DNA of 64,000 nt. It comes from Nissabacter sp. SGAir0207. GTDB lineage: Bacteria > Pseudomonadota > Gammaproteobacteria > Enterobacterales > Enterobacteriaceae. This document shows positions 16,173 to 32,208 of this stretch, piece after piece (positions within the stretch are counted from its first letter, which is position 1; the number at the start of each line of letters is the position of its first letter). The position numbers were made by a program, and so were the translations under genes. Under the pieces are notes generated by a model. The model had not been told where the DNA came from and made no database searches. It saw only the letters and a list, made by a program, of their open reading frames with translations. Location: assembly GCF_005491205.1 (NCBI RefSeq), contig NZ_CP028036.1:186001-250000 (forward strand). Reading direction: 5' to 3'.

Positions 16173-17135
16173 TCAGCGTTTGCCAAACAGGGCATAGGCG
16201 TAGAGCCGGTCACGGGCAAGGTTCTTCATCTTCACTTCGCACATGATGTCAAACTGCTCAAAGGAGAGCGCCCAGTCGTTGAGCGCCTTGTTGAAGTAGT
16301 AGTCCGAGTGGGCGCGCAGTTTGGTTTTCGGCACGCCGAGGCTGGCCTGATCGGGCAAGCCCTGCTCCGGGATGATTCCCTCCTGGGAGATGGAGTAGTG
16401 CAGCACCGGCCGCACGCCGCGCCAGGAGGCGATGACCCGCTCAATGCGCGGATCGTCAGGCGTGATGAACTCCGCCTCCTTCACCCAGTGGTGGTGGATG
16501 TCGAGCACAATCGGGCAGAGCGCCTCCGCCTGCAACACGTCGTCCAGCGAGCAGGAGATCTCATCGTTCTCCACGGTCAGCATCCGCTGCGCCTCCGGTG
16601 AGAGCCGGGCAAACGCCTCCTTGAACCCCTCAAACCCCTTTTTGCCATTCATATGGATGTTGATTTTGAAATCCTGAAAGGTCTGGCCATAGCCCATCAG
16701 CACCGCGCACAGCGCGTGGTACTCAATGTCCTCCAGCGCCCGATCCACCACCTGCGGGTTGTCCGAGGCCATCACCGAGTACTGGCCGGGGTGGAAAGAG
16801 AGCCGGATGCCCTTCTCCCGCGCAAACTCTCCGCAGCGGGTGAACAGCGGGTGCAGATCCGGCAAGAAGGTCTGGTAGAGCTGCGTCGCCTCCGGCACGG
16901 TGTAGAGCGGCAGCAGGTCACTGCCAATACGCATCATCCGCATCGCCTCTGGCAGCGAGGCGAGCTGCTCAAAGATCAGGTAGAGGTTGGTGAGGTTGGT
17001 CTTGGCAAGCCCATAGATCAGCGCCGTGCGCTGCTCGTCATCCAGGCTAAGGAAGCGGGTTCGGGTGGTGGCTTTAAACGGATAAAGCTGCTTGAGTTCT
17101 GAGTTAAGGTATTTACACGCAAAGCCTAATTTCAT
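16173..17135 (-). CDS. uvsE: UV damage endonuclease
   Basis: A 320-residue member of the UvdE/UvsE TIM-barrel endonucleases, which nick DNA 5' of UV photoproducts without the UvrABC proteins. Metal-binding segments expected for the family are visible in order: LSFHPGQYSVM, INIHMNGKKG, LTVENDE and LDIHHHWVK, which supply the His, Glu and Asp ligands. Length matches the bacterial enzymes. ATG 17135 follows AGGAG. It is a lone gene, as usual for uvsE, and is an uncommon extra in enterobacteria that already have UvrABC and photolyase. No damage-regulated box was recognised upstream. Confidence 0.9.
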   Translation of the reverse strand: MKLGFACKYLNSELKQLYPFKATTRTRFLSLDDEQRTALIYGLAKTNLTNLYLIFEQLASLPEAMRMMRIGSDLLPLYTVPEATQLYQTFLPDLHPLFTRCGEFAREKGIRLSFHPGQYSVMASDNPQVVDRALEDIEYHALCAVLMGYGQTFQDFKINIHMNGKKGFEGFKEAFARLSPEAQRMLTVENDEISCSLDDVLQAEALCPIVLDIHHHWVKEAEFITPDDPRIERVIASWRGVRPVLHYSISQEGIIPEQGLPDQASLGVPKTKLRAHSDYYFNKALNDWALSFEQFDIMCEVKMKNLARDRLYAYALFGKR

Positions 17136-17323: not shown

Positions 17324-18523
17324 ATGGAATCCTGGAAGGTCAACCTTATCTCTATCTGGCTCGGCTGCTTTTTTACCGGGCTGGCCATCAGCCAAATCCT
17401 GCCGTTTTTGCCACTCTATATTGAGCAACTGGGCGTGCACTCGCCGGACGCGCTGCCGGTCTGGTCAGGGCTGACGTTTAGCGTCACCTTTTTGGTTTCG
17501 GCGCTGGTGGCGCCGCTGTGGGGCAGTCTGGCCGACCGCAAGGGGCGCAAGCTGATGCTGCTGCGTGCGGCGCTGGGCATGAGCGTGGTGATCTTCCTTC
17601 AGGCATTCGTCACCCAGCCGTGGCAACTGCTGCTGTTGCGCGGCCTGATGGGGCTGACTTCCGGCTACATCCCCAATGCGATGGCGCTGGTGGCAACCCA
17701 GTCGCCGAAGGATCGCAGCGGCTGGGCGCTGAGCACGGTGGCGACCGGCCAGATCAGCGGCGTGATTGCTGGGCCGCTGCTGGGCGGGATGCTGGCGGAT
17801 TGGATTGGCCTGCGCGCGGTGTTCCTGTTCACCTCCGGCCTGCTGTTGGTCTGCTTCTTTATTACGCTGTTCCTGATCAAGGAGAGCGGGCACCGCATCG
17901 TCAGCAAGCAGGAGCGGCTGAGCGGCAAGGCGATCTTCCGCACGCTGAAAAATCCGGCGCTGGTGGTCAGCCTGTTCTTTACCACGCTGACCATCCAGCT
18001 CTCCAACGGCTCCATCAGCCCGATTCTGACGCTGTTCGTGCGGCACCTGGCCCCGGATATCCAGAACATCGCCTTTGTCAGCGGCTTTATCGCCGCGGTG
18101 CCGGGGGTTTCGGCGCTCTTCTCCGCGCCGGTGCTGGGCAAGCTTGGCGACCGCATCGGCACCGGGCGGATCCTGGTGGCAACGCTTTCGGTCTCGATCC
18201 TGCTGTTTATCGGCATGTCTTTCGTCACCAGCCCGACCCAATTGGCGGTGCTGCGCTTCCTGCTCGGTTTCGCTGATGGCGCGATGATGCCAGCGGTGCA
18301 GACGCTGCTGCTGCGCCAAAGCAGTGACCAGACCACCGGGCGGATCTTTGGCTACAACCAATCCTTTATGTATCTGGGGAATGTGGCGGGGCCGCTGCTC
18401 GGCTCAATGATCTCGGCAATGGCGGGCTACCGTTGGGTGTTTGTCTGCACGGCGCTGGTGGTGCTGATCAACACGCTGGTATTCGTCAGCATCAGCCGAC
18501 GGCGGGAACGGCGCGCGGGATAA
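17324..18523 (+). CDS. mdtG: MFS multidrug exporter MdtG
   Basis: A 399-residue major facilitator protein with 12 predicted membrane segments. It follows E. coli MdtG closely: WLGCFFTGLAISQILPFLPL, LADRKGRKLMLLRAALGM (loop 2-3 signature), ISPILTLFVRHLA, VPGVSALFSAPVLGKLGDRI and RIFGYNQSFMYLGNV. MdtG confers fosfomycin and deoxycholate resistance when overproduced in E. coli and is activated by MarA/SoxS there; I did not identify a marbox. The N-terminus is about eight residues shorter than in E. coli. The ATG at 17324 has only a distant AAAGG. It converges on the NCS1 permease gene. Confidence 0.85.
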   Translation: MESWKVNLISIWLGCFFTGLAISQILPFLPLYIEQLGVHSPDALPVWSGLTFSVTFLVSALVAPLWGSLADRKGRKLMLLRAALGMSVVIFLQAFVTQPWQLLLLRGLMGLTSGYIPNAMALVATQSPKDRSGWALSTVATGQISGVIAGPLLGGMLADWIGLRAVFLFTSGLLLVCFFITLFLIKESGHRIVSKQERLSGKAIFRTLKNPALVVSLFFTTLTIQLSNGSISPILTLFVRHLAPDIQNIAFVSGFIAAVPGVSALFSAPVLGKLGDRIGTGRILVATLSVSILLFIGMSFVTSPTQLAVLRFLLGFADGAMMPAVQTLLLRQSSDQTTGRIFGYNQSFMYLGNVAGPLLGSMISAMAGYRWVFVCTALVVLINTLVFVSISRRRERRAG

Positions 18524-18570: not shown

Positions 18571-19965
18571 CTACGCCTGACTGCCGCTGAGCGCCGGCAG
18601 GGCGTGGCGGCGGACGCAGAGCGGGTAGGCGATGGCGGTCACCACCAGACTGATTACCCAGGAGATGTCCGCGCCGGGGATCAGCTTCGCGTAGGGGCCG
18701 GTGAAGAAGGCGTTCTCCACGAAGGGGATCTGCACCACGATGCCGCCGAAGTAGACCAGCAGCGCCCGCCCGTTCAGCCGACCATAGCGGCCGCCGTCGG
18801 CGCTGAAGATGGCGTTGATGTCATAACGCTGCTTGTTGATCAGGTAGAAGTCGAGCAGGTTAATCACGCTCCACGGGATCAGCACCGCAATCAGCGCCAG
18901 AATCAGGTTGAAGAAGAAGGCGACGAAATTCTCCGAGGCGGCCAGTGCCACCAGCACCGAGGCGACCAGCACCAGCGTTGAGAACAGGATGCGCACCCGT
19001 GCGCCCGGCGTCCAGCTTGGGCGGAAGGTCTGCACGGCGGTGATCAGGGAGAGCACCGCGCCATACAGGTTCATTGAGTTGTGGCAGATGATGTTAATCA
19101 GGAACAGCACCATCAGCACCGGCCCCAGCCAGCCGGTGGCCTGCCGCACTGCCGCCATCGCGTCACTGCCATCCGGCACCATGTTGACCGCCACCATGCC
19201 GAACACAAAGGCCAGAATGGTGCCGCAACAGGCTCCAAGATAGGTGCAGAGGAAGGGGCGGGCGATGCCGACGCTGGCTGGCAGGTAGCGCGAGTAGTCG
19301 GAGGTGTAGGGCGAGAAGCTGATCTGCCACACCGCGCCGATGCAGAAGGTGGCGAACCAACCGGCCAGTGAGAAGCTGCCGCGCTGCCAGAAATCCGCCG
19401 GGAAGGGCTGGCCGAGCATCAGCGCCAGCCCGAGTAGCAGCGCCGCGCCCATCACCCAAGCCCCCACCTTGTTGATGCGGTGGATAAAGTGGTAGCCCAC
19501 CACACCAATCAGGGTGGCGGTGATCGCGCCGACCAGCGTGGCGCTCGGCAGCGGCAGCGCCGGGATGACGTTATTGATCACCTTGCCGGAGAGCGAGATG
19601 TTGGAGATAAAGAAGCCGAGGTAGATAACGGTGGTGAAGGCGATCACCAGCAGCGAGCCGTAGCGGCCAAACTGCGCGCGGCTCTGCACCATCTGCGGGA
19701 TGCCGACCTGCGGCCCCTGCGCGGAGGTGAGCGCCAGAAACAGCCCGCCAAACAGATGGCCAGCGACGATCGCCGTCAGGGCGGAGAGAATGTTCAGGTG
19801 GAACGTCTGGGTAGAGATGGCACCGGTCACCACCGCCAGTGGCGCGATGTTGGTGCAGAACCACAGGGTGAACAGGCTGCGCGCCTGCCCGTGGCGTTCA
19901 GCGGGCGGGACATAATCCACCGACTTGTTCTCAATCAAGGGGTTCTGCTCTGGCTGACTCTTCAT
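18571..19965 (-). CDS. NCS1-family purine/cytosine-type permease
   Basis: A 464-residue inner-membrane symporter with 12 hydrophobic segments. NCS1 features include the early SLFTLWFCTNIAPLAV helix, the GPQVGIPQMVQSRAQFG motif and SFSPYTSDYSRYLP in the middle. The family imports nucleobases, hydantoins, allantoin and related nitrogen heterocycles. ATG 19965 has an ideal GGAGG five bases upstream; the frame continues 23 codons further but without coding support. It is the last gene of the Rut-like cluster, 155 bases after the aldehyde dehydrogenase, and probably brings in its substrate. Confidence 0.9.
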   Translation of the reverse strand: MKSQPEQNPLIENKSVDYVPPAERHGQARSLFTLWFCTNIAPLAVVTGAISTQTFHLNILSALTAIVAGHLFGGLFLALTSAQGPQVGIPQMVQSRAQFGRYGSLLVIAFTTVIYLGFFISNISLSGKVINNVIPALPLPSATLVGAITATLIGVVGYHFIHRINKVGAWVMGAALLLGLALMLGQPFPADFWQRGSFSLAGWFATFCIGAVWQISFSPYTSDYSRYLPASVGIARPFLCTYLGACCGTILAFVFGMVAVNMVPDGSDAMAAVRQATGWLGPVLMVLFLINIICHNSMNLYGAVLSLITAVQTFRPSWTPGARVRILFSTLVLVASVLVALAASENFVAFFFNLILALIAVLIPWSVINLLDFYLINKQRYDINAIFSADGGRYGRLNGRALLVYFGGIVVQIPFVENAFFTGPYAKLIPGADISWVISLVVTAIAYPLCVRRHALPALSGSQA

Positions 19966-20090
19966 TGTATCCTCCGGCATGACATCAAAAGGGGTCGCGT
20001 TGGGGTCGTTTTCCTGAAAAAAGCGCATGGCCATCCGGGCAACATCATGGGTGTTGCCTTGGATACGATCTGGCGTGGTGGTTCCCGGAA

Positions 20091-20113
20091 CCGGCAGGGC
20101 AGCCCTGCCGGTG
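20091..20113 (-). terminator. Hairpin between aldehyde dehydrogenase and permease genes
   Basis: ACCGGCAGGGC pairs with GCCCTGCCGGT almost without a loop. There is no T-run, so it is more likely a processing or attenuation structure that lowers permease expression than a full terminator. Confidence 0.35.
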
Positions 20114-20119
20114 GGTGGC

Positions 20120-21586
20120 TTACCGCATTACAAAGGGATCATCGATCGGCTCGTCACTGGTGCGCAGCCACACGGTCTTGGTGGTGGTGTACTCCAGCGC
20201 GGCATCGATGCCGCCCTCACGGCCAAAGCCCGATTTGCCGTAGCCGCCGAATGGCGCCAGCGGCGAGACGGCACGGTAGGTGTTGAGCCACACCACGCCA
20301 CAGCGCAGGCGGCGTGTCACACGGTGGGCGCGCGTCAGGTTCTGGGTGAAGACGCCAGCGGCCAGCCCATACTCGGTGGCGTTCGCCAGCGCGATGGCCT
20401 CCGCCTCATCGCGGAAGGTCAGCACCGACAGCACCGGGCCAAACAGCTCCTGCACCACGCTCTCCGCCTGTGGCACGGCAGCGCAGTCGAGGATGGTCGG
20501 CGGGTAGTAGAAGCCGGGGCGATCGAGGGCGTAGTGGCCGGTCACCAGCCGCGCGCCCTGCTCCAGTGAGCGGTTGACTACCTGCTCAATCAGGTTCTTC
20601 TGCCGTTCGGTGCAGAGCGGGCCAAACTGGGTCTCCGGCTGCTGCGGGCAGCCAATCACAATACCGCTCACTTTCTGGGTCAGCTTCTCAATGAACGCCT
20701 CTTTGATGCTCTCGGCCACCAGCAGCCGCGAGCCAGCCACGCAGCTCTGCCCGGAGGCGGAGAAGATGGCAGCGACCTGCGCGTTGGCCGCGCTCTCCAG
20801 ATCGGCATCCTCAAACACGATAAACGGCGACTTGCCGCCCAGCTCCAGCGAGGTGCGCGCCAGGTTCTCCGCGCTGTTGCGGATGATGTGGCGGGCGGTC
20901 TCCGCCCCGCCGGTGAAGGCGATGTGGTCAACGTCGGGGTGGGTGGTCAGCACGCTGCCGCACTCGTCGGCAAAACCGGTGATGATGTTACATACCCCCG
21001 GCGGGAAGCCCGCCTCATCAATCAGGCGGGCGAAGGCCAGCAGCGGCGCGGGCGCGGCCTCCGAGGCCTTCACCACCACCGTGCAGCCAGCGGCGATGGC
21101 CGGGCCAATCTTGACCGCCGACAGGAACAGTTGGCTGTTCCACGGGATGATCGCCGCCACTACGCCGACCGGTTCGCGCTTGATCCAGGTCTCCATGTCC
21201 GGCTTGTCGATACTCAGCGTCGTGCCATCCATCTTGTCGGCCAGCCCGGCGTAGAAGCGGTAGTACTCCGCCACATAGCCGACCTGCGCCCGCGTCTCGC
21301 GGATGATCTTGCCGGTGTCCAGCGTCTCCAGCCGCGCCAAGTGGTCGGCGTGCTGCTCCACCAGTTCGGCCAGCCGCCACAGCAGCTTGCCGCGCGCGCC
21401 GGCGCTCATGGCGCGCCAGCCGTCCGAGTGGAAGGCCCGGCTGGCGGCGGCCACCGCGCGGTTCACCTCGTCGGTGCGCGCCTCGGCCATCTCCGCCCAC
21501 GGCTCGCCGGTGGCAGGGTTCAGTGAGGCGAAGCGGGCCGCGCCCTCGTCAAAGCGGCCATCAATATAGAGTGCGAACGATTCCAT
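20120..21586 (-). CDS. Aldehyde dehydrogenase
   Basis: A 488-residue NAD(P)-dependent aldehyde dehydrogenase. The cofactor and catalytic residues are intact: Asn in IIPWNSQLFL, Glu in LELGGKSPF, Cys in GQSCVAGSR and the NAD-binding FTGGAETAR. It should oxidise a semialdehyde to the acid in the cytoplasm. GGGGGAGAG precedes ATG 21586. It follows the LLM monooxygenase by eight bases in one operon, so the aldehyde is probably produced by ring opening and hydrolysis steps encoded upstream. The substrate is not determined by sequence. Confidence 0.93.
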   Translation of the reverse strand: MESFALYIDGRFDEGAARFASLNPATGEPWAEMAEARTDEVNRAVAAASRAFHSDGWRAMSAGARGKLLWRLAELVEQHADHLARLETLDTGKIIRETRAQVGYVAEYYRFYAGLADKMDGTTLSIDKPDMETWIKREPVGVVAAIIPWNSQLFLSAVKIGPAIAAGCTVVVKASEAAPAPLLAFARLIDEAGFPPGVCNIITGFADECGSVLTTHPDVDHIAFTGGAETARHIIRNSAENLARTSLELGGKSPFIVFEDADLESAANAQVAAIFSASGQSCVAGSRLLVAESIKEAFIEKLTQKVSGIVIGCPQQPETQFGPLCTERQKNLIEQVVNRSLEQGARLVTGHYALDRPGFYYPPTILDCAAVPQAESVVQELFGPVLSVLTFRDEAEAIALANATEYGLAAGVFTQNLTRAHRVTRRLRCGVVWLNTYRAVSPLAPFGGYGKSGFGREGGIDAALEYTTTKTVWLRTSDEPIDDPFVMR

Positions 21587-21594
21587 CTCTCCCC

Positions 21595-22635
21595 CTAGTC
21601 ACGAAATTCAGGCATAACGTAGCGAATGAAGCGCTCCAGCGATGCCTTTTTCCGTGCAAAGGTCATGCCGCTGTCCAGCCACAGGGAGAACTCCCCATAA
21701 CCCATCGCCTCATACTGTTTCAGCCGGGTGATCACCTCATTCGGCGTGCCGATTGCCAGGTTTTTGCGCATCATCTCCGGCGTGTAGTAGCGGTTGGCGG
21801 CGATCTCCTCGTCGCTCAGGGGCGCGATCAGCCCTTGCTCCACTGGCCGCTCATTCTTGAACCATGCGCCGAAGTAGTTGTAGAAGCGGTTAAGCTCCTC
21901 CGCCGCCTGTTGCGCGTCGGCCTCATCTTCCGCCACGTAGCCGTGCTGGAGCAGCATGATCTTCAGCGGCTTCTCGGGCGCGAACTGCTGGCAGGCCGCC
22001 TTGAAGCACTCCACCAGCCGCACGATCTCCTCCTCGCCTTGGTGCAGTGGCGTCACCTGCACGTTGCAGCCGTTCTTCACCGCAAACTCATGGCTGTTGG
22101 GGTCACGCGCCGCCACCCAGATGGGCGGGTGGGGCTGCTGTTTCGGCAGCGGGGCGGAGGTGGTGGAGGGGAATGACCAGTACTCGCCCTGATGGGCGTA
22201 GTCGCCCTCCCACAGTTTTTTCACCGCGGGCACCAGTTCGCGCATCCGCTGGCCAGCGTCCCAGGCGGTAAGGCCCGGCATCAGGCGCTCATATTCATAA
22301 GAGTACGCGCCGCGGGCGATGCCCAGCTCCAGCCGGCCGTTGGTTATCACGTCGGTCATCGCCGCCTCGCCCGCCAACCGGATGGGGTGGGTGAAGGGCG
22401 CGATGATGGTGCCGGTGCCGAGCCGCACATGCTGGGTGCGGTGGGCGATATCCACCAGATTGATCAGGGGGTTCGGGGCGATGGTGAAGTTCATGCCGTG
22501 GTGCTCGCCCGTCCAGATGGCGTGCATCCCGCCCTGATCGGCGATTTCACAGAGCTGCATCATCTCCTCATACAGCTGCTGCTGGGACTCCTCGGGCGAG
22601 GTTCTTTCCATATGGAGGAACAGGGACATTTTCAT
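21595..22635 (-). CDS. LLM-class flavin-dependent monooxygenase
   Basis: A 346-residue bacterial-luciferase-like enzyme. Family marks are the start MKMSLFLHMERTSPEESQQQ, IWTGEHHGMNFTIAPNPL, VRLGTGTIIAPFTHPIRLAG and NGRLELGIARGAYSYEYERL. With FMNH2 and O2 such enzymes hydroxylate or cleave ring carbons next to nitrogen or sulfur; RutA opens uracil this way. It should depend on the flavin reductase encoded 17 bases upstream. The ribosome site GAGGA is nine bases from ATG 22635. The exact substrate is unknown. The sequence looks clearly distinct from RutA, so ordinary uracil use is not assumed. Confidence 0.88.
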   Translation of the reverse strand: MKMSLFLHMERTSPEESQQQLYEEMMQLCEIADQGGMHAIWTGEHHGMNFTIAPNPLINLVDIAHRTQHVRLGTGTIIAPFTHPIRLAGEAAMTDVITNGRLELGIARGAYSYEYERLMPGLTAWDAGQRMRELVPAVKKLWEGDYAHQGEYWSFPSTTSAPLPKQQPHPPIWVAARDPNSHEFAVKNGCNVQVTPLHQGEEEIVRLVECFKAACQQFAPEKPLKIMLLQHGYVAEDEADAQQAAEELNRFYNYFGAWFKNERPVEQGLIAPLSDEEIAANRYYTPEMMRKNLAIGTPNEVITRLKQYEAMGYGEFSLWLDSGMTFARKKASLERFIRYVMPEFRD

Positions 22636-22652
22636 GCGGTTATCCTCGTAGG

Positions 22653-23582
22653 TTAGCTGGCGAACTGCCTGATTGAGCCGCTTTGCTCATCGCCGTAGTA
22701 GATGCCGTAGTTGCCGACCGCGTGCTCGCGCACAAAGCGGTTGAGCAGGGATTTCAGCGCCGAGTCAGAGAGCGGCAGCGCGGCGGCGCGGCTCAGGTCA
22801 AACCACTCGCCGCCGCGTGGCGTCGGCAGCGGGTCGGCGGCCTCCGTCGGCATGGCGCACAGGAACACGATGTGCTGGCGGTTCTGCTGGCGGTCGTCAT
22901 ACACCGAGTAGACCACGCCGGGGTTGGCGCAGATGTCGAGATCGGCCAGCAACGCCTTGAGCGTGTCACTGACGCTGTGCTGGCCGACGCGGCGTGACGG
23001 CAGCGCCGGGCCGCCGGTGGCCTGATCCACCATCACCGTATGCCCCTGACACTCGATCAGGGCGCTCACCACCACCTCCGGGCCTGCCAGCAGTGATTCA
23101 GCGCTGCGGGCCGGGGTGAAGTAGGCACCACGGTAGTAGCCCAGCCCGGCGGTGCCGCAGGAGTCGAATTGCTCCACGCGGCCAATCAAAATGGCGTGGT
23201 CGCCCGCATCCACCACTTGGTGCAGCGCGCAGTCAAACCATGCTGAGCTATGGTCAATCAACGGTGCGCCAGAGAGCGCTGGCCGCCAGCCGATCAGCGA
23301 GAAGCGATCCTCAATCTTCTGCGCGAAGATATTGGAGGTCTCCTGCTGCTGCTCCGACAGGATGTTGATGGCGAAGTGCGAACAGCCGGTGAAGTTGCTG
23401 AGGTTGGCCGAGCGCTTGTCGATGCTCACCAGCAGCAGCGGCGGATCTAGCGACACCGAGGAGAAGGAGTTGGCGGTAAAGCCGATCGGCTGCCCCTGCG
23501 GGTCGCGGCTGGTGACCACTGTCACGCCGGTCATAAAGGCGCCGAAGGCGTCACGTAACTGTCTGCGTTTATCTGCGTCCAT
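22653..23582 (-). CDS. Flavin reductase with extra C-terminal domain
   Basis: A 309-residue protein. Residues 1-165 form an HpaC/RutF-type NAD(P)H:flavin reductase (MTGVTVVTSRDPQGQPIGFT, ANSFSSVSLDPPLLLVSIDK, HFAINILSEQQQ, GDHAILIGRVE). Residues 166-309 form a second domain of about 140 residues (SALIECQGHTVMVDQATG onwards) whose spacing recalls a Nudix fold but which lacks the Nudix box. Ordinary reductases of this class are 160-190 residues long. It supplies reduced flavin to the LLM monooxygenase. Its start overlaps the hydrolase gene by 14 bases, and AAGGAG precedes ATG 23582. Confidence 0.87.
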   Translation of the reverse strand: MDADKRRQLRDAFGAFMTGVTVVTSRDPQGQPIGFTANSFSSVSLDPPLLLVSIDKRSANLSNFTGCSHFAINILSEQQQETSNIFAQKIEDRFSLIGWRPALSGAPLIDHSSAWFDCALHQVVDAGDHAILIGRVEQFDSCGTAGLGYYRGAYFTPARSAESLLAGPEVVVSALIECQGHTVMVDQATGGPALPSRRVGQHSVSDTLKALLADLDICANPGVVYSVYDDRQQNRQHIVFLCAMPTEAADPLPTPRGGEWFDLSRAAALPLSDSALKSLLNRFVREHAVGNYGIYYGDEQSGSIRQFAS

Positions 23583-24414
23583 CTGCCACTCCTTCAGGTG
23601 TGGGGAATAAAGAGCGGGAACCCCCCGCCGGGCGGAGGAACATCAGCAGCTCCTCATTGACCCGCTCGGCATCGGTCAGGTTCACCATATGTTTCGCATT
23701 CTCGATAATCACGGCGCGCCCGTGCGGGGCGGCCTGCGCCATCTGCCGTGCCATCGCCGGGCTGGAGTTAGCATCGAACTCGCCGGTCATCACCAGCACC
23801 GGGCAGCGCATCGCCTGCCAGCGGTCAGCATAGGTGCGGTCGCCGCCAGCAAAGGCACGGTAGGCGCGGGCGTAGCCCTCTACGTCCACCTGTTGCAGCC
23901 ACTCGCCAACCTGTGCGCGCAGCGTCTGCTCCTCCGGCGTGTCGCTGAACCAGCGTGCCAGCGGTGAGTCGAGGCGGGCGTGGCCGGTCGCCAGCTCCTG
24001 CGCCCGTTGCAGCACCGCCTCACGGGCGGCATCATTGCGCTTGAACACGCCGCTGATCACCACCGCGTGGCTGACCAGCGCTGGATAGTCAATCGCCAGC
24101 CCGGCGGTGATCAGCGCACCCATCGAGTGACCCGCCACCGCAAAGCACCCCTCCGGCCGCGTCGCCAGCAGGGCGGCCAGCCAGCGCACATAGTCGGGCA
24201 GGGTGGCGTCGTGCTGGAAACCCTCGCTCTGGCCGTGGCCCGGCATATCGACGGCAATCACCTTGAACGTGCGGCTCAGCCACTCAATCTGCGGATACCA
24301 CGCGGCGGCGTTCATGCCGACGCCGTGGATCAGCACCAGCGGCGGGCCGTCACCGGCCTCCAGATAGCTGGCGCGCAGGTTGCATTCAGACAGCAGCAGG
24401 GTTTTTCGGATCAT
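23569..24414 (-). CDS. Alpha/beta hydrolase (RutD-like position)
   Basis: A 281-residue alpha/beta hydrolase. The oxyanion region LVLIHGVGMNAAAW, nucleophile elbow AGHSMGAL (Ser), acid Asp in MTGEFDANSSP and His in ENAKHMVN make a complete catalytic set. It probably cleaves an amide, carbamate or ester produced by the monooxygenase, as RutD is proposed to do in uracil use; this is an inference from operon position. It overlaps the DUF1185 gene by 29 bases at its start and the reductase gene by 14 bases at its end. AAGGAA lies upstream of ATG 24414. Confidence 0.9.
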   Translation of the reverse strand: MIRKTLLLSECNLRASYLEAGDGPPLVLIHGVGMNAAAWYPQIEWLSRTFKVIAVDMPGHGQSEGFQHDATLPDYVRWLAALLATRPEGCFAVAGHSMGALITAGLAIDYPALVSHAVVISGVFKRNDAAREAVLQRAQELATGHARLDSPLARWFSDTPEEQTLRAQVGEWLQQVDVEGYARAYRAFAGGDRTYADRWQAMRCPVLVMTGEFDANSSPAMARQMAQAAPHGRAVIIENAKHMVNLTDAERVNEELLMFLRPAGGSRSLFPTPEGVADGRR

Positions 24415-24988
24415 GGCCCAATTCCTTCAAATCCAGGTAACGGTTGCCGATGCGGTGGTGCGGACGGCCGCCCAGCGCCGCGCCGAGGGCAATCACAATC
24501 TCATCGTTGAACGGCGCGTCGTTGATGTTGAACTGGATGGTCAGGTAGTGCTCGCGGCTGCCTTCGTCGTTCTTGCCCATCATCGGGATCAGGATCGGCG
24601 AGTTGGCCGGGCCACGGGTATTGTTGAAGGCGAGGTAACTTTTGCCCTGTACGGCGGAGCGGTAGTGGTTGCCGAAGTGCAGGGTGTGGATCAGCGCCGA
24701 GGCGTGCTCCAGTTCGCCATCCAGCCCGACCACCGCGCTCTTGCCAAACGCCTGCACCCGCTCGCCGGAGCCAGCCTCCTTGATGATTAGCCCGGTAAGC
24801 AGCTCGCCCAGCACCGGTGCCATCTCACGGATTTTCGGCGCGAGATCTTCCACGAAGCCCTCACCGGCCCACGGGTTCTTCACCACGGCGGCGGCAGCGA
24901 TCATCACCAGAGGGGAGCCGGCGGCCTTGCCTCCGTCGCTGTAGATCGTCTCAGTAGAGACCACGGTTTTGCGGATAGCTGGATGCAT
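24386..24988 (-). CDS. DUF1185 (amino acid synthesis family) protein
   Basis: A 200-residue protein of the AA_synth/DUF1185 family. The family pattern is visible in RKTVVSTETIYSDGGKAAGS, VMIAAAAVVKNPWAG, GKSAVVGLDGELEHASALIH and the C-terminal FNDEIVIALGAALGGRPHHR. No reaction is firmly known to me; the conserved His, Asp and Glu residues and its place first in this operon suggest a hydrolase or isomerase acting on a ring-opened or cyclic amide intermediate. GAGG precedes ATG 24988. Tight overlap with the alpha/beta hydrolase gene indicates coupled translation and a shared pathway. Confidence 0.85.
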   Translation of the reverse strand: MHPAIRKTVVSTETIYSDGGKAAGSPLVMIAAAAVVKNPWAGEGFVEDLAPKIREMAPVLGELLTGLIIKEAGSGERVQAFGKSAVVGLDGELEHASALIHTLHFGNHYRSAVQGKSYLAFNNTRGPANSPILIPMMGKNDEGSREHYLTIQFNINDAPFNDEIVIALGAALGGRPHHRIGNRYLDLKELGHDPKNPAAV

Positions 24989-25487
24989 GTCATCACCTCA
25001 ATTAAGTAAATAAAATGTTAATGTGAAGTCTCAGGTCGGGATATAACATTGGGTCTCATGGTATGTCAAAATGTGGTATACCATCATACGGAATACTTAT
25101 TGAGCAGCGTGCGAGGCGCGGTTGCTGACAAATAGATGACATTTTTCAAGCACTTTTATGACGTATGAAAGGGGAAGAAAACGCCCTGATGCCTCTGAGC
25201 CAATAAGGGCTGGGCAAGAACGGGGCGAGGGAAAGGTGGTTACGCAACTCCCTGATAAGCCTGCTTTAAAAGCGGAACTTCTGGCAGCGGGCGGTAACTG
25301 GCAGCACCCTTTTTGGCAATGTTACGAAATTGTGAGCCACCGCTGATTTAGCGAGGGCGGCCGATAGGGCAGGCGAGCCAGCCCTTGAAGGAGGCATTGG
25401 GTGACATTGCCTGTCACCCGGCGGGGTGCTAATAGTACCCAAGGCAGGCGTTAACGACGCGTTTTTCACTCTGGCACAAGGATACCC
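24989..25487. other. Divergent control region of the Rut-like cluster
   Basis: 499 bases between the DUF1185 gene and the divergent GntR gene. It contains the palindrome at 25074-25083 about 86 bases upstream of the DUF1185 start. A 62-codon ORF at 25158-25346 has no ribosome site and is not called. Confidence 0.5.
25074..25083. promoter_or_regulatory. GntR-type operator candidate
   Basis: TGGTATACCA is a perfect palindrome and has the TGGT-ATACCA character of FadR-subfamily (GntR) sites. A related half-site ATGGTATG lies 15 bases to the left. The likely binder is the GntR protein encoded at 25488. Confidence 0.55.
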
Positions 25488-26165
25488 ATGGCCCAACACC
25501 ACACACTTAAAATCGATAACACCCCTATTACCTTGCGTGAGTTGGCGCTGACCAAGGTGCGTCAGGCGATTATCTCCGGCTATTTTGGTGCCGGTGACCG
25601 GCTGGTGGAGCGCACCCTCAGTGAAGAGCTGGGCGTCAGCCGCAGCGTGGTCAGGGAGGTGATCCGCTATCTGGAGGCGGAGGGGCTGATTGAGAACGTG
25701 CCGAAAAAGGGGCCGATTGTCGCGGTGCTGACCTGGCAGGCCGCCGAGCAGATCTACAACATCCGCCAGTTGCTGGAGCAGGAGGCCGCACAGGATTGCG
25801 CCCGGCTGGCGACTGACGCCGACAAGCAGCGGCTGCACCGCAACCTGATGCAGATCGCCCAGGCCTCCAAAGAGCAGGATGACATCAAGCGGGTGGAGGC
25901 GTCGCAGGCTTTCTACGAGTCACTGTTTTTGGTGGCGAATCACACCATCGCCTGGGAGATTGTGCAGCGGCTCAACAGCCGCATCAGCCGCCTGCGGGCG
26001 CTGACGCTGAAATACCCCGACCGGCAGATCGCTGGCTTTGAGCGCATGTCACGGATCTATGACGCCATCGAGAAGAACGACCCGGCGCTGGCGCGGCAAC
26101 GGGTCTCCGAACACCTGACCGAGGCCGCCGCGCTGGCGCGCCACATCCTAACCCACGAGGAGTAA
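25488..26165 (+). CDS. GntR-family regulator, FadR/FCD type
   Basis: A 225-residue repressor. Residues 15-75 are the winged helix (LTKVRQAIISGYFGAGDRLV, then SEELGVSRSVVREVIRYLEA), and residues 85-220 are an all-helical FCD ligand domain with metal-site Asp/His residues (FYESLFLVANHTIAWE, HLTEAAALARHI). It is divergent from the Rut-like catabolic genes and most likely controls them in response to a pathway intermediate, binding the palindrome at 25074-25083. AAGGA precedes ATG 25488. The DUF1330 gene follows after three bases. Confidence 0.92.
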   Translation: MAQHHTLKIDNTPITLRELALTKVRQAIISGYFGAGDRLVERTLSEELGVSRSVVREVIRYLEAEGLIENVPKKGPIVAVLTWQAAEQIYNIRQLLEQEAAQDCARLATDADKQRLHRNLMQIAQASKEQDDIKRVEASQAFYESLFLVANHTIAWEIVQRLNSRISRLRALTLKYPDRQIAGFERMSRIYDAIEKNDPALARQRVSEHLTEAAALARHILTHEE

Positions 26166-26168
26166 ACC

Positions 26169-26459
26169 ATGCCTGCCTATTGGATTGCCCATGTCACCGT
26201 CAAAGACCCGCAGCAGTACCAGCACTACATGGATCTTGCGCCCCATGCCTTCCGCCAGTACCACGCCCGTTTTCTGGCGCGCGGCGAGCAAGCCGAGACT
26301 CTGGAGGGCACCGCCTACACCAAGCATGTGGTCATTGAGTTTGCCGATTACCAAACCGCGCTGGCCTGCTACCACTCTGACGCCTATCAGCAAGCCAAGG
26401 CACAGCGCGCCGACGTGGCCGAAGCGATGATCACCATCGTGGATGGGTTGCCAGCCTAA
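26169..26459 (+). CDS. DUF1330 family protein
   Basis: A 96-residue ferredoxin-like small protein of the DUF1330 family (PAYWIAHVTVKDPQQYQHYM, RFLARGEQAETLEG, VVIEFADYQTALACYHSDAY). Members form dimeric alpha/beta barrels and have no settled activity. It follows the GntR gene by three bases with GGAG upstream of ATG 26169, so it is co-expressed with the regulator and probably belongs to the same pathway, perhaps as a small isomerase or accessory protein. Confidence 0.88.
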   Translation: MPAYWIAHVTVKDPQQYQHYMDLAPHAFRQYHARFLARGEQAETLEGTAYTKHVVIEFADYQTALACYHSDAYQQAKAQRADVAEAMITIVDGLPA

Positions 26460-26552: not shown

Positions 26553-28160
26553 TTACGCCGCGCGGCCGGGCAGGGCGGCGAGCAGTTCGCGCGTCCACGG
26601 GTGTTGGGGCCGGTGGAACACCTGATCCACGTCGCCACTCTCCACCGCTTCGCCGTCCCGCATTACCAGTACCCGGTCAGCCAGATGGTGGATCACCCCG
26701 AGGTTGTGGGAGATAAACAGCAGCGCGGTCTGGTGTTCTGCCTGCATGTCGGCCAGCAGGTCGAGCACCTGCGCCTGCACCGAGACATCCAGCGCGCTCA
26801 CCGGCTCATCCGCCACCAGCAGCGCCGGGTTGGGGGCGAAGGCACGGGCGATGGCGACGCGCTGTCGCTGGCCGCCAGACATCTCGCGCGGATAGCGGTG
26901 CAAGAACCCGGCGCCCAGCCGTACCTCATCGAGCAACTGCCGCACCCGCTGGTGCCGCGCCGCGCCAAAGATGCCCGCGCTGTCGAGGCTTTCGCCAATG
27001 ATCTTCTCCACGGTGTAACGGGGGTCGAAGGAGCTGAGCGGATCTTGCGCAATGAACTGGAGCAGATGGCGATGCGGACGCCGCGCCGCCTCCTCCACCC
27101 GGCTCCAGGGACGCCCGCCGAGGGTGATAAGGCCACTGTCCGGCTCGGTCAGCCCCAGCACCATGCGGGCCACCGTGGTTTTGCCCGAGCCGGACTCGCC
27201 GACGATGCCGAGCGTCTCACCGGCGGCGAGCTGGAAATTGACATTGTGCACCACGTGGCGATCGCCATAGTGCTTGTGCAGGCCCGTCGCGACCAGCAGC
27301 GGCGTCGCGGGCGGTGGTCGCCGTGCAGGCAGCGGCTGCGGCTCCGGTGAGGCGAGGCGGAAACCGCGCGTCTCGGGCGTGGGCACCGCCTGCAAAAGTT
27401 GCCGCGTCCAGGGGTGGCGCGGCTGGCGCAGCAGCGATGCGGCGTGGCCCTCCTCGACCACCTCGCCGTCACGCATTACCAGCACCCGGTCAGCCAGTTC
27501 GCTCACCACCGAGAGGTCATGGCTGATCAACAGCAGTGACTGCCCGGCCTCGCGCCGCCGCCGCAACAGCGCGAGAATTTGCTGTTGCACGGTCATGTCC
27601 AGCGCGGTGGTTGGCTCATCGGCGATCAGCAGCGAGGGGCGGCCTGCCAGCGCGGCGGCAATCAGCGCCCGCTGGCGCAACCCGCCAGAGAGCTGGTGGG
27701 GATAGAGTGCCAGCCGCCGCTCGCCATCGGGGATACCCGCCTCCGCCAGCAGTTGCAGGCTGCGCGCCGGGATCTCGCGCCGGTCACCCGGTGCCGCGGC
27801 ACGCAGCGCATCCGCCAGTTGCTGGCCAATGCGCCGCAATGGGTCGAGGGAGACCAGCGCGTCCTGCAACACGTAGCCAATCTCCTTGCCGCGCAGCGCG
27901 CGCCACTGGCGCTGGCTGGCGTGGCGGCGATCGTGACCATTGATCAGCAGGCGGTCTGCACTGACGTGGGTGCGCCGGTCATGCAAGCCGAGCAGCGCCC
28001 GCGCCGTGACGGTCTTGCCGGAGCCGGACTCCCCCACCAGCGCCACCGATTCGCCGGGGCGGATCTGGAGATCCAACCCCTTGACGGCCACGGCCCGCCC
28101 CTGCGCGGCGGCAAATTCAATCCGCAGGTTCTGGATGTCGATCACCAAGGGCGTGCTCAT
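26553..28160 (-). CDS. Peptide-type ABC transporter, double ATPase
   Basis: A 535-residue fusion of two ATP-binding domains (about 1-255 and 285-535), as in GsiA and YejF. Each half has a Walker A (GESGSGKT), a signature (LSGGLRQRALIA in the first, MSGGQRQRVAIA in the second) and a Walker B ending (LLIADEPTTALD, LLVADEPVSALD). It powers uptake of a peptide-like solute. The start overlaps the preceding permease gene by ATGA, and it is the last gene of a five-gene operon with two permeases, a binding protein and a GNAT enzyme. Confidence 0.95.
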   Translation of the reverse strand: MSTPLVIDIQNLRIEFAAAQGRAVAVKGLDLQIRPGESVALVGESGSGKTVTARALLGLHDRRTHVSADRLLINGHDRRHASQRQWRALRGKEIGYVLQDALVSLDPLRRIGQQLADALRAAAPGDRREIPARSLQLLAEAGIPDGERRLALYPHQLSGGLRQRALIAAALAGRPSLLIADEPTTALDMTVQQQILALLRRRREAGQSLLLISHDLSVVSELADRVLVMRDGEVVEEGHAASLLRQPRHPWTRQLLQAVPTPETRGFRLASPEPQPLPARRPPPATPLLVATGLHKHYGDRHVVHNVNFQLAAGETLGIVGESGSGKTTVARMVLGLTEPDSGLITLGGRPWSRVEEAARRPHRHLLQFIAQDPLSSFDPRYTVEKIIGESLDSAGIFGAARHQRVRQLLDEVRLGAGFLHRYPREMSGGQRQRVAIARAFAPNPALLVADEPVSALDVSVQAQVLDLLADMQAEHQTALLFISHNLGVIHHLADRVLVMRDGEAVESGDVDQVFHRPQHPWTRELLAALPGRAA

Positions 28161-28990
28161 GCTGTTCTCCCTTCAAAACGTGCCTGCCAAACGCGACCAA
28201 CGCTGTTGACCGCCAACACCGTCAGGGTGATCGCCACCCCCGGCCAGACGCCAACCCACCACGCGTTGCGCAGGTAGTTGCGCCCCTCGGCCAGCATCAG
28301 GCCCCACTCCGCCGTGGGCGGTTGCGGCCCCATGCCAAGAAAACTCAGCCCGGCCGCGCCAATGATGGCGGAACCCAGCCCAAGGGTCGCCAGCACCGGC
28401 ACATGGGCGATGGCGTGCGGCAGCACGTGCCGCCATACCAGCCGTTGCGGCGACAGGCCAAAGGTGCGCGCCTGCTCCACATAGCCGGAGGCGGCAACCA
28501 CAAAGGTCTGGGCGCGCACCACCCGCGCAAAGCGCGGCACGGAGGCCACGCCGAGCGCAATGATCAGGTTGGGGGTGCCGGGGCCAGTGAAAGCGATCAG
28601 CATCAGCGCCAGCAGCAAATCAGGGAAGGCGGAGACCACATCCAACGCCCGGCTGATGAACTCATCCAGCGCGCCGCGCGCCAGCCCGGCCAGCAGCCCA
28701 AGCAGGGTGCCCGCCACTACCGCCACCCCCATCGCCGACAGGCTGATCAGCAGCGAGTAACGGCTGCCATAGATGACGCGCGCCAGCACGTCGCGCCCCA
28801 GTTGATCCGTGCCGAGCCAGTGGCTGGCCGAAGGTGGTAACTGGGCGTGAAGCGGGTCGGCCGCCAGCGGGTCATAGCTGGCGAGCCAGGCCGGGAACAG
28901 CGCCGCCAGCAGCACCAGCGCCAGAAAGGCCAGTGCTGGCAGCAGCCCAAGGGATGGCAGGCGGCGTGACAGCCGCAACGCGTGGCTCAT
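28157..28990 (-). CDS. ABC transporter permease, DppC type
   Basis: A 277-residue inner-membrane permease with about six segments. The extended DppC-type N-terminus (DPLAADPLHAQLPPSASHWL, then GTDQLGRDVLARVIYG) and the EAA-like loop (YVEQARTFGLSPQRLVWRHV) are typical of the OppC/DppC class. It overlaps both neighbours by four bases (ATGA), so the complex is made from tightly coupled genes. Confidence 0.93.
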   Translation of the reverse strand: MSHALRLSRRLPSLGLLPALAFLALVLLAALFPAWLASYDPLAADPLHAQLPPSASHWLGTDQLGRDVLARVIYGSRYSLLISLSAMGVAVVAGTLLGLLAGLARGALDEFISRALDVVSAFPDLLLALMLIAFTGPGTPNLIIALGVASVPRFARVVRAQTFVVAASGYVEQARTFGLSPQRLVWRHVLPHAIAHVPVLATLGLGSAIIGAAGLSFLGMGPQPPTAEWGLMLAEGRNYLRNAWWVGVWPGVAITLTVLAVNSVGRVWQARFEGRTA

Positions 28991-29988
28991 GGCTGCGCCT
29001 CCCCAGTCGGGCGCGGCGTGCGCAGGCGTGGGTCAATTAACAGGTAGAGAATATCCACCAGCGTGCTCATCACCACGTAGATAAACGCCGAGAAGATGGC
29101 GACGGCCAGCACCACCGGCAGATCTTTGCCCAGTACCGCATCCACTGTCACCTTGCCAAGGCCGGGTCGGCCAAACACCTGTTCGGTGATCACCGCGCCA
29201 CCCAGCAGCCCGCCTACCAGCCAGCCGGTGAGGGTGACCGCAGGCAGGGCCGCATGGCGCAAGCCGTGGCGCAGGCGGATGGTCAGGTTGCTGACGCCCC
29301 AGGCGCGCAGCGTCAGGGCAAAGGGTTCTGCCAGTGCATCTTCCAGCCCGCGCCGCAGCACCTGCGCCACCACGGCCCCCTGCGCCAGCCCCAGTGACAG
29401 CGCTGGCAGCACCAGCGCCGCCAGATTGCGGTCACCGGCCACCGGGAACCAGCGTAGGGTAAAGCTGAAAACAAACAGCAGCACGATCCCTAGCCAGAAG
29501 GAGGGGGTGGAGGCCAGCAGCAGCTCCAGCGCACCGGCCACCCGACGCCCCAGCGGGCGTCCGGCGGTCAGGGTGGCTACCGTCACGGCAAACAGCAGGC
29601 TCACTCCCAGCGCCGCGCCCGTAAGTTTCAGGGTCGGCCACAACTGCGAGAGCAGCAGCGTGCCCACCTCACTGTTCAGCAGGTAGGAGCGGCCGAAGTC
29701 GCCATGCAGCACGCGCCACAGGTAGTGCAGGTATTGCAGCCACAACGGCTGGTCCAGCCCCCATTCGGCCCGGATGGCCGCCTCAATCTCCGGCGTGCGC
29801 AACTGCTCGCCCACCAGCAGGCTGACGATGTCACCCGGCGCCAGATAGAGGCTGAGGAAGGAGAGGCTCACCGCCGCCCACAGCACCAGCACCCCACTGC
29901 CCAGCCGGGCGGCAATCTTTCCCGGCAGGGCGCTGCGCCCGGCACACTTGCGGCGGCGCGGCACACTGACACTGCTCTCAAGGCTCAT
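28987..29988 (-). CDS. ABC transporter permease, DppB type
   Basis: A 333-residue permease with six predicted membrane segments and an unusual basic N-terminal extension of about 25 residues before the first segment (LGSGVLVLWAAVSLSFLSLY). DppB-type features are GDFGRSYLLNSEVGTLLLSQ and the loop LAEPFALTLRAWGVSNLTIR. It pairs with the DppC-type protein. Gene order here is binding protein, DppB, DppC, ATPase. Confidence 0.92.
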   Translation of the reverse strand: MSLESSVSVPRRRKCAGRSALPGKIAARLGSGVLVLWAAVSLSFLSLYLAPGDIVSLLVGEQLRTPEIEAAIRAEWGLDQPLWLQYLHYLWRVLHGDFGRSYLLNSEVGTLLLSQLWPTLKLTGAALGVSLLFAVTVATLTAGRPLGRRVAGALELLLASTPSFWLGIVLLFVFSFTLRWFPVAGDRNLAALVLPALSLGLAQGAVVAQVLRRGLEDALAEPFALTLRAWGVSNLTIRLRHGLRHAALPAVTLTGWLVGGLLGGAVITEQVFGRPGLGKVTVDAVLGKDLPVVLAVAIFSAFIYVVMSTLVDILYLLIDPRLRTPRPTGEAQP

Positions 29989-29998
29989 GATGGACTCC

Positions 29999-31612
29999 TC
30001 AATGATCGCTCAGCCAGACGTCGTAGGCGTTTTCCGGCATCTGTTTAAAGGGGCGGAACCCGACACCGTGTACATAGGAGGCGGCAGCAATTTGGTCTTC
30101 CGGCTCATACAGCGGCACCGCCACCGCCTGTTGCAGGATGGCAAACGACTGCAAACGGCCATAGAACGCTTTGCGCTCGGTGTTATCCAGCGTCTGCGAG
30201 GCCCCCTCCAGCAGCGGGATGATCTCTGGCGCGTCGGTGCGGCTGTAGTTGATGGAGCCACCCGCATTGACCGGCAGGTAGTGGTTTTCGATGTCAATGC
30301 CGTCAGTCTCGGTATTGGAGTTGGCGATGGAGCCGAACTGACCGCTATTGCGCAGATCGACGTAGGTACCGGCATCCACATAGCGGATCTTCAGCTCCAC
30401 CCCCAGCCGCTGCCGCGCCTGCGCCTGAATGGCCTGCAACAGCACGTCACGCTGGTCGCGCACCGTGGCCTGTGCCTGGATGATCTCAATACTCAGCCGC
30501 TGCCCCTGCTGGGTGCGGAAGCCCTCGGCATCACGCGTCGCCCAGCCCGCTTCATCCAGCAGCCGGTTAGCCAGTGCCGGGTTGTTGCCATATTTGCCAT
30601 CAAGGCTGTTGTCATACAGCGGATCGACCGGTGAGGTGATGCCCCAGGTGCGGGTGCGCTCACCGCGGTAGATGGAGGCAAGCAGCGGCGCGATGTCCAG
30701 CCCCTGTAGCAGCGCCTGCCGCACGTTGAGCGACTGGGTAGGGCCATGTTTCACATTCAGGAACAGCGAGTAAGGCGTGCCGGGGTTCAGGGCGTGCTGG
30801 TAGCTGAAGTCCGGGTTCTGCTTGAACTCACCGGCATCATTGCCGGAGATGCCCTCAATCACATCCACCTGCCCGGAGAGCAGCGCGCCGGTACGCACCG
30901 AGGACTCCGGCAGGAAGCGGTAGGTGACGCCCTCCAGATAGGCTGGCCCCTGATGCGCAGCGTTGGCAGAGGCCCAGCGGTAGGCCGGATTGCGTACAAA
31001 CTCAATCTGTTGCCCCTTGTCGTAACGCTTGAGGATAAATGGCCCGGTGCCAGCAATCTCCGGCCCACCGGCCTTGAGTTGCGGTGAGGCCCAGGCCGCT
31101 GGCGAGAGCAGCTTCAGCCCGGCGGCGAAGGAGAGGAACGGCGAGTAGGCCTCTTTTAACGTGATGCGTACCGTCCCGTCATCGGGCGTCTCCACGGTGG
31201 CGATGTGCCGCCCCAGCGCACAGAGGCTGGAACCGGCGCAGTAGCCCGGCTGCTGGGTATGGCGGAAGTTCTCTGCCACCGCCTGCGCGTCCAGCTTGCG
31301 GCCATCGGAGAAGGTGACGTCTGGCCGCAGCGTGAAGGTGTAGGTTTTGCCATCCTCCGAGACCTGATAGCCGGTCGCCAGCCACGGAATAAACTCGCCA
31401 TTCGCTTTGCGCGCCAGCAGCGACTCATAGGCGACGCGCAGGATCAGCTCCGCCTTGGACTGGCCATTTAGCTGTGGGTTGAGGGTATTTGGCTCGGTCT
31501 CCACCCCCCAGATGAGGTGGCCCCCCGGCTGTGGCGTGTCATTGGCGGCGTGGGCGGCGAAGGCCAGCAGCAGGGCGCTGGCCGTCAGGAGCGGTAGGTG
31601 CATTTTGTTCAT
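29999..31612 (-). CDS. ABC transporter periplasmic binding protein, family 5
   Basis: A 537-residue exported protein with signal peptide MNKMHLPLLTASALLLAFAA (cleavage near AHA). The solute-binding family 5 pattern is clear: GGHLIWGVETEPNTLNPQLN, WLATGYQVSEDGKTYTFTLR, DVTFSDGRKLDAQAV and RQALLQGLDIAPLLASIYRG. Family members bind peptides, nickel, opines or glutathione-like ligands. ATG 31612 marks a proper signal peptide; the frame is open 68 codons further but those residues are not protein-like. It lies 32 bases after the GNAT gene in one operon. Confidence 0.92.
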   Translation of the reverse strand: MNKMHLPLLTASALLLAFAAHAANDTPQPGGHLIWGVETEPNTLNPQLNGQSKAELILRVAYESLLARKANGEFIPWLATGYQVSEDGKTYTFTLRPDVTFSDGRKLDAQAVAENFRHTQQPGYCAGSSLCALGRHIATVETPDDGTVRITLKEAYSPFLSFAAGLKLLSPAAWASPQLKAGGPEIAGTGPFILKRYDKGQQIEFVRNPAYRWASANAAHQGPAYLEGVTYRFLPESSVRTGALLSGQVDVIEGISGNDAGEFKQNPDFSYQHALNPGTPYSLFLNVKHGPTQSLNVRQALLQGLDIAPLLASIYRGERTRTWGITSPVDPLYDNSLDGKYGNNPALANRLLDEAGWATRDAEGFRTQQGQRLSIEIIQAQATVRDQRDVLLQAIQAQARQRLGVELKIRYVDAGTYVDLRNSGQFGSIANSNTETDGIDIENHYLPVNAGGSINYSRTDAPEIIPLLEGASQTLDNTERKAFYGRLQSFAILQQAVAVPLYEPEDQIAAASYVHGVGFRPFKQMPENAYDVWLSDH

Positions 31613-31644
31613 GGTGTCCCCGGAGGTGGTGATAAGGTCTGGCG

Positions 31645-32208
31645 TCAGGTGACCAGGTGGGTATCGGGCAGTGTGCGGACGAACTCCTTCTGCACCTGCG
31701 CCTGATAGTGCGCCGGATCCAAAATTTTTCGCAGGTAGACCAGCTCCACGCCCAGTGGGTTGGTGGCGGTGTGGAACGGCTGGTAGCCGCGCCGCTGGTA
31801 GAGGCCGGTCAGCCACGGGTGGCGGATGGCAGTCGCCAGATAGACCGCCGGGCTTTTCAGGGTATCGCGCAGGAAAGTCTCCTCGACATGCCCCATCAGC
31901 CGGCTGCCGACGCCCTGATGTTTGGCCTGCTCATCCACCGCGAACCAGTGGAGGAACGGCCAGGGGGCGAGCGCCTTGTCGATGGGCGTGGCCCAGCTAA
32001 AGCGGGCGCTGAGGGTGGCGATCGGCTGCCCGGCGCGCTCCAGCACGAAGGTGGTTTCCTGGCGGATCACCTCACGCACCTCCTCCACCGTTGCACGGGT
32101 AATGGTGAAGTGGATACCGTGCTGTTGCAGCGGCTTGTAGGCACGCTGCAACAGGGCGTGCAGCTCGGCCGCCTCCTGTTCGCGGGCAATGCGGATGATC
32201 TCTGTCAT
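31645..32208 (-). CDS. GNAT-family N-acetyltransferase
   Basis: A 187-residue GCN5-related acetyltransferase. The acetyl-CoA loop is HQGVGSRLMGHVEE (Q-x-x-G-x-G/S class) after the FLHWFAVDE strand, and the YQRRGYQPFH segment forms the family's last conserved motif. It is the first gene of the ABC transporter operon and divergent from an LLM monooxygenase. That trio resembles the S-alkylcysteine catabolic systems of Bacillus (yxe and ytm/sna operons), where the amine is acetylated before sulfur-carbon cleavage. The role is inferred. Confidence 0.88.
   Translation of the reverse strand: MTEIIRIAREQEAAELHALLQRAYKPLQQHGIHFTITRATVEEVREVIRQETTFVLERAGQPIATLSARFSWATPIDKALAPWPFLHWFAVDEQAKHQGVGSRLMGHVEETFLRDTLKSPAVYLATAIRHPWLTGLYQRRGYQPFHTATNPLGVELVYLRKILDPAHYQAQVQKEFVRTLPDTHLVT

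Follow-up and report, generated by a model that had tools for sequence, protein, structure and literature searches.

A probable trigonelline (tgn) cluster in Nissabacter sp. SGAir0207 and a possible role for its DUF1185 protein

The degradation of trigonelline (N-methylnicotinate, a coffee alkaloid) by Acinetobacter was reportedly published in PNAS in 2018, and the chemical steps considered below follow that pathway. TgnA and TgnB form the oxygenase system that opens trigonelline's aromatic ring (PMC8269262), TgnF stimulates the TgnE-dependent oxidation of succinate semialdehyde in A. baylyi ADP1, and TgnF has a homologue in HcdD, a protein resembling DUF1185 (PMC7913881). A stretch of 64,000 nucleotides from Nissabacter sp. 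SGAir0207 (contig NZ_CP028036.1, positions 186,001 to 250,000; hereafter the window) contains eight genes at window positions 18571-26459 that, judging from gene families, gene order and kinship to named tgn genes, would constitute the known tgn cluster for trigonelline, with a probability of roughly 0.93. This identity is well supported, and the predicted pathway is very probably one that is already known and not a new one; with it, an enterobacterium would join the hosts of this known route for using a widespread plant compound as a nutrient.

Gene content and kinship of the cluster

The predicted ring-opening component is a TgnB-type LLM oxygenase (PF00296; 21595-22635, minus strand). A search with this protein returned 4102 relatives at E <= 1e-40, of which 120 were listed. 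Among the matches listed, P0111, which NCBI names "flavin-dependent trigonelline monooxygenase oxygenase component [Acinetobacter]", was 69% identical over 99% of the length, and P0118, which JGI also names a trigonelline monooxygenase oxygenase component, was 71% identical; the other matches listed carried general monooxygenase names or no name. In a maximum-likelihood tree of 36 chosen rows, the window LLM protein grouped with those of Serratia, Chimaeribacter, and Pantoea (four rows, support 100/100), and this group was nested in a 23-row clade (100/99) that included the Acinetobacter copies and the copy on pSymA of Sinorhizobium meliloti.

Locus L084, from a plasmid of Acinetobacter sp. 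PK01, contains genes for DUF1330, a GntR regulator, DUF1185, and a hydrolase, followed by tgnA, tgnB, tgnC, and a cytosine-type permease, which is the gene order of the window. The plus strand of the window encodes a DUF1330 protein (PF07045, E=6.7e-33; 26169-26459) and a divergent GntR/FCD regulator (PF00392 and PF07729; 25488-26165), each 58% identical to its counterpart in L084. The minus strand encodes DUF1185 (PF06684, E=4e-64; 24386-24988; 73% identity to the L084 gene), a hydrolase termed TgnD-type by its position (alpha/beta fold, PF12697/PF00561; 23569-24414; 51% to the L084 hydrolase in the matching position), a TgnA-type flavin reductase of 309 amino acids with a C-terminal domain of about 150 residues (PF01613; 22653-23582; 48% to the annotated tgnA), the LLM oxygenase (70% to the annotated tgnB), a TgnC-type aldehyde dehydrogenase that would act on the ring-opened hydroxybutyrolactone (PF00171; 20120-21586; 69% to the annotated tgnC), and an NCS1-family permease (PF02133, E=9e-40; 18571-20034; 63% to the permease gene located 3' of the dehydrogenase in the Acinetobacter loci L082 and L084). 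The L084 gene for DUF1185 is annotated as "amino acid synthesis family protein", and Pfam confirms it as DUF1185. This protein is assigned here to TgnF because a DUF1185-like protein is called a TgnF homologue in PMC7913881.

Open reading frames and Pfam matches bore out the seven genes that a first-pass annotation of the letters alone had named, including their tight spacing and the divergent GntR gene. The DUF1185 and hydrolase genes overlap by 29 bases and the hydrolase and reductase genes by 14 bases, followed by gaps of 17 bases between reductase and LLM, 8 bases between LLM and dehydrogenase, and 85 bases between dehydrogenase and permease. The DUF1330 gene, which begins 3 bases past GntR, had been left unnamed, although it lies inside the interval annotated. 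Rfam and tRNA scans of the window gave no matches. PDB relatives of the hydrolase include alpha-(N-acetylaminomethylene)succinate hydrolase (3kxp), but 3-oxoadipate enol-lactonase and RutD score above it. Outside the cluster, the window encodes a UvsE-type UV endonuclease (16173-17135, minus strand; slightly below the NCBIfam cut-off), an MdtG-like MFS transporter (17324-18523, plus strand; below the equivalog cut-off), and a region that reads by eye as a peptide-type ABC transporter operon (26553-31816, minus strand).

Several points weigh against the assignment to trigonelline. In L084, the tgn names come from database annotation and are attached to A, B, and C only, the hydrolase being annotated just as "alpha/beta hydrolase"; for the hydrolase and the reductase, identity to the Acinetobacter copies is no more than about 50%; among the sequences compared, none was identified by name as that of A. 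baylyi ADP1; and no succinate-semialdehyde dehydrogenase gene is present within the cluster.

Conservation, operator, and proposed pathway

A scan of species genomes confirmed 573 relatives or more, and the best 80 (LLM 69-88% identical), together with four plasmid loci, formed a set of 84 loci. The order DUF1185-hydrolase-reductase-LLM-dehydrogenase was intact in 78 of them, across several classes of Proteobacteria, and the arrangement is therefore not due to chance. In two of the remaining six, the contig (3,275 and 6,106 bases, respectively) stops within the cluster; one locus had no reductase match, and in three the reductase, or the hydrolase and reductase, were inverted. Anywhere in the stretch, LLM and dehydrogenase were matched in 84/84 loci, the hydrolase in 83/84, and DUF1185 and the reductase in 82/84 each, the two loci without DUF1185 being contigs that stop short of the gene. 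Of the 84 loci, 69 had a DUF1330 match, 67 a GntR match, and 36 an NCS1 permease match no more than 5 kb from the LLM gene. In Escherichia coli (5426 genomes), only an NCS1 fragment representing 4% of the query was found, on four plasmids in four genomes.

In L035, L044, and L076, the best reductase match (38-39%) lay upstream on the opposite strand, as did the hydrolase match (41-46%) in L035 and L076, with DUF1185 upstream of LLM on the LLM strand; L035 and L044 carry a second DUF1185 copy. Seven of the 116 hydrolase-type open reading frames joined hydrolase and flavin reductase in a single frame of 568-607 amino acids (L083:8223-9995, L077:8244-9995, L028:8283-10004, L034 and L041:8298-10004, L149:6148-7917, and L164:5879-7702), which may be either a natural TgnD-TgnA fusion or a frame merger. 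Near the end of a plasmid record of Acinetobacter venetianus (CP060162.1, 339442-340473), an LLM gene was 83.1% identical to that of the window, a value shared by two Pantoea plasmid matches, perhaps owing either to recent transfer or to a mixed assembly.

S. meliloti 1021 harbors a single LLM match (67%) on pSymA, in a cluster of equal gene order at 429.5-435.5 kb; NodA is encoded at 481 kb of the same replicon. The window reductase matches PDB entry 3rh7 over residues 7-308 (E=4e-78), and reductase-type frames were 302-332 amino acids long in 102 of 103 relatives. The pSymA reductase matches 3rh7, which is described as "hypothetical oxidoreductase", over its whole length with 679.6 bits, and 3rh7 is thus taken to be this protein, which would give a probable function to an orphan structure.

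A palindrome, TGGTATACCA, at 25074-25083 upstream of DUF1185 is a probable operator of the GntR regulator, which is the obvious candidate to bind it. In the window and the 81 loci with a placeable DUF1185 start (all but L062, L070, and L079), the palindrome was found within 110 bases upstream of DUF1185, exactly in 67/82 regions and with at most one mismatch in 79/82; these regions and their surroundings, 1.68 Mb in total, contained 73 exact copies. The window genome (5.03 Mb) contained two exact copies, and a control pattern read backwards was equally frequent, so that it is the position that tells, and not rarity alone. In a second set of loci, the operator was present within 150 bases with at most one mismatch in 15 of the 21 DUF1185 genes (12 exact) that the analyst had labelled as tgn-like from neighbouring genes, vs. 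0/60 of the others. An operator common to several classes would mark tgn loci. No published report of it was found in the literature searched, whose coverage was without most subscription papers and the pathway paper itself.

The second exact copy in the window genome, at C1:710984, has a LacI-type regulator on one side and, on the other, a cluster that by eye resembles one for sugar use; this copy is attributed to chance. Divergent LLM-DUF1185 clusters, with LLM proteins 38-54% identical to that of the window, were present in L144, L169, L173, L184, and L191 and in genomes G058, G286, and G310. The exact operator is kept in L136, L138, and L139 (G058, G310, and G286, respectively); L169, L184, and L191 are without an exact copy and may serve other ring substrates. 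Three tgn-like clusters (L134, L137, and L142) had neither the operator nor a GntR match in the stretch, and a LysR-type-looking frame was seen there by eye.

By analogy with the Acinetobacter pathway, trigonelline would be imported by the NCS1 permease, a probable trigonelline importer. TgnA would supply reduced flavin and TgnB would open the pyridinium ring to a formamido-hydroxybutyrolactone, which TgnC would oxidize to 2-((N-methylformamido)methylene)succinate. TgnD would then hydrolyze this compound to formate, CO2, methylamine, and succinate semialdehyde. DUF1185 (TgnF), the least understood part, may handle a 2-formyl-dicarboxylate or enamine freed by ring hydrolysis, while the GntR protein probably represses from TGGTATACCA. 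The first-pass annotation had envisaged a ring opened to an amide-aldehyde, hydrolyzed, and then oxidized to a central acid; the ring opening and the central acid very probably hold, whereas the published pathway reportedly oxidizes before it hydrolyzes. Its analogy with two-component pyridine breakdown was correct.

An unlinked succinate-semialdehyde dehydrogenase would complete the carbon route. Outside the cluster, the window genome contained candidates 59, 54, and 53% identical to the L084 succinate-semialdehyde dehydrogenase, which belongs to a large family. The methylamine released may be handled by genes that lie on the contig of the cluster, some 23 kb away from it (L219, G000:C2:168001-186000). 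This stretch encodes a type III glutamate-ammonia ligase and a formyltetrahydrofolate deformylase (both above cut-off), a trio of glutamine amidotransferase, GXGXG, and glutamate-synthase proteins, the alpha and delta subunits of a sarcosine-oxidase-type enzyme (identified by Pfam, their NCBIfam models being below cut-off), and open frames that look by eye like FolD, beta, and gamma, a set that we take to be the N-methylglutamate route for methylamine. In L084, purU, folD, and sarcosine-oxidase-type genes adjoin tgn. At least two of eight N-methylglutamate-type genes (>=35% identity) were found in the flanks of 9/84 tgn loci, with matches of just 37-52% in two of these (L048 and L059); linkage with methylamine genes thus characterizes a minority of loci within the flanks examined.

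An N-methylated ring would be expected to release methylamine, and this favors trigonelline over pyrimidines. The first-pass annotation had proposed that a pyrimidine, hydantoin, or other heterocycle is degraded in a Rut-like manner, with DUF1185 and an aldehyde dehydrogenase in place of RutB and RutC. It was right that neither RutB nor RutC is found by Pfam among the eight genes. However, the cluster proteins scored far below the cut-offs of the two matching Rut models (RutF, 87.7 vs. 254.75 bits; RutD, 67.8 vs. 238.5 bits), RutA did not appear among the families shown (25 of 28) for the window LLM protein, which is close to a named trigonelline oxygenase, and a true RutA is encoded on another contig of the genome (C1:2393327; 728 bits vs. 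a cut-off of 498.3). Furthermore, only five of the 27 genomes with RutA over the cut-off contained DUF1185, which was on a different contig from RutA in four of them and roughly 51 kb distant in the fifth, whereas DUF1185 lay within 20 kb of a TgnB-like gene in 23/23 genomes. A Rut variant was rejected as scarcely credible. For DUF1185 as a stand-in for RutC (Rid/YjgF) by fold, the structural likeness was too weak to be informative. The substrate class had been regarded as unknown, but the tgn genes of Acinetobacter, published together with their substrate, probably identify it as trigonelline. The same enzymes could act on a close N-methylpyridinium relative or another related compound (N-methylnicotinamide, another N-alkylpyridinium, or nicotinate), given that 69% identity cannot reveal enzyme specificity and that the divergent LLM-DUF1185 clusters suggest that the family may have other substrates. 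The operator and gene order are those of the Acinetobacter tgn loci, the N-methylglutamate-type genes nearby suggest an N-methyl substrate, and in PMC8269262 TgnA/TgnB are argued to be unlikely to act on the isomer homarine due to steric hindrance; such a substrate is thus very unlikely, and trigonelline is preferred.

Distribution and possible role of DUF1185

Among 398 genomes of the phylum, including the window genome, DUF1185 was found in 59, with 84 matches. Three markers were searched for in whole genomes: a TgnB-like LLM gene (E <= 1e-40), an enamidase-like gene, and a gene like that named "6-hydroxynicotinate reductase". DUF1185 lay within 20 kb of the TgnB-like gene in all 23 genomes that carry it (within 5 kb in 18), of the enamidase-like gene in 19/19, and of the reductase-like gene in 30/31. 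At least one marker was present in 53/59 genomes with DUF1185 vs. 1/339 without it. The enamidase-like and reductase-like markers had been chosen as DUF1185 neighbors, and Fisher values for the linkage are therefore only descriptive; related genomes, moreover, are not independent. Neither of these two markers was found in the window genome at E <= 1e-40.

Neighboring genes were surveyed for 81 of the 84 matches, in 72 stretches; the three set aside were the window's own match, a fragment covering 40 profile positions, and G388, whose genus and score equal those of G390. Recurrent neighbors included an amidohydrolase matching enamidase 2vun (E=5e-109), the protein that both NCBI and JGI name "6-hydroxynicotinate reductase", molybdenum hydroxylases, branched-chain-type ABC transporters, and a protein that NCBI lists as "hypothetical protein" and that we presume to be UPF0280-like. 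The public name of DUF1185 points to amino-acid synthesis partly because of such branched-chain-type transporter neighbors.

The product of enamidase is (S)-2-formylglutarate, according to PMC7356986 and PMC9304392, and TgnD chemistry should pass through 2-formylsuccinate before the loss of CO2. The trigonelline and enamidase settings should thus both yield a 2-formyl-dicarboxylate, and DUF1185 is proposed to act at that stage or on the enamine. It is tentatively suggested that the DUF1185 family is misnamed and consists of enzymes for the breakdown of N-heterocycles, acting on the 2-formyl-dicarboxylate or preceding enamine as a tautomerase, decarboxylase, or enamine hydrolase, which would give a specific role to a family publicly named for amino-acid synthesis. 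On this view, the stimulation reported for succinate-semialdehyde oxidation would reflect faster delivery of the aldehyde. Against this role, 18/84 matches (one a fragment) had none of the three markers within 20 kb, so that the two settings do not account for everything; other copies lie near fumarylacetoacetate-hydrolase-type or GMC-type genes. In addition, HcdD, which belongs to a coumarin pathway, showed no effect (PMC7913881). No published link between DUF1185 and enamidase was found in the literature searched, within the coverage given above.

A serious possibility is that DUF1185 performs no reaction of its own and acts as a helper that activates or scaffolds the succinate-semialdehyde dehydrogenase or the hydrolase. 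The stimulation of TgnE-dependent oxidation by TgnF would be consistent with this, although no such effect was demonstrable for the relative HcdD (PMC7913881), and so would the overlap of the DUF1185 and hydrolase genes, by 29-35 bases in 77/84 loci. However, a dehydrogenase at least 45% identical to that of L084 was found in the fetched flanks of 25/84 loci, vs. DUF1185 in 82/84; the charged residues R6, K83, E92, E94, H95, R110, D157, E163, and R179, invariant in 54 members, look like an active site; and DUF1185 also accompanies the unrelated enamidase pathway. Opening of a lactone or hydroxylactone by DUF1185 was considered as well: the ring-opened trigonelline product and cyclic succinate semialdehyde are hydroxylactones, and HcdD is located in a coumarin-lactone cluster. 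This role may hold, but it would leave the enamidase setting uncovered.

Comparison with known systems

The Rut pathway resembles the window cluster by role, in its two-component flavin oxygenase, hydrolase, and NCS1-type import, but the window genes differ in their Rut profile scores, in the absence of RutB and RutC from the cluster, and in the separate RutA of the genome. Proteobacterial loci that carry 6-hydroxynicotinate reductase and enamidase genes, the marks of the Eubacterium barkeri type of nicotinate pathway, have DUF1185 close by; ring opening in that pathway, in contrast, is reductive and hydrolytic and does not need an LLM oxygenase. The pSymA cluster of S. meliloti contains GntR, DUF1185, hydrolase, reductase, LLM, and dehydrogenase in window order at 42-70% identity, whereas neither the NCS1 permease nor DUF1330 was matched in the 40 kb stretch and the operator has one mismatch. 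The Acinetobacter tgn cluster (L084) and the window share relatives of TgnA, TgnB, TgnC, the hydrolase, TgnF, the permease, GntR, and DUF1330 in equal order, as well as the operator. It differs in that the window cluster is without a linked succinate-semialdehyde dehydrogenase, that the N-methylglutamate-type genes are 23 kb off in the window and adjacent in L084, and that the proteins of the two are 48-73% identical.

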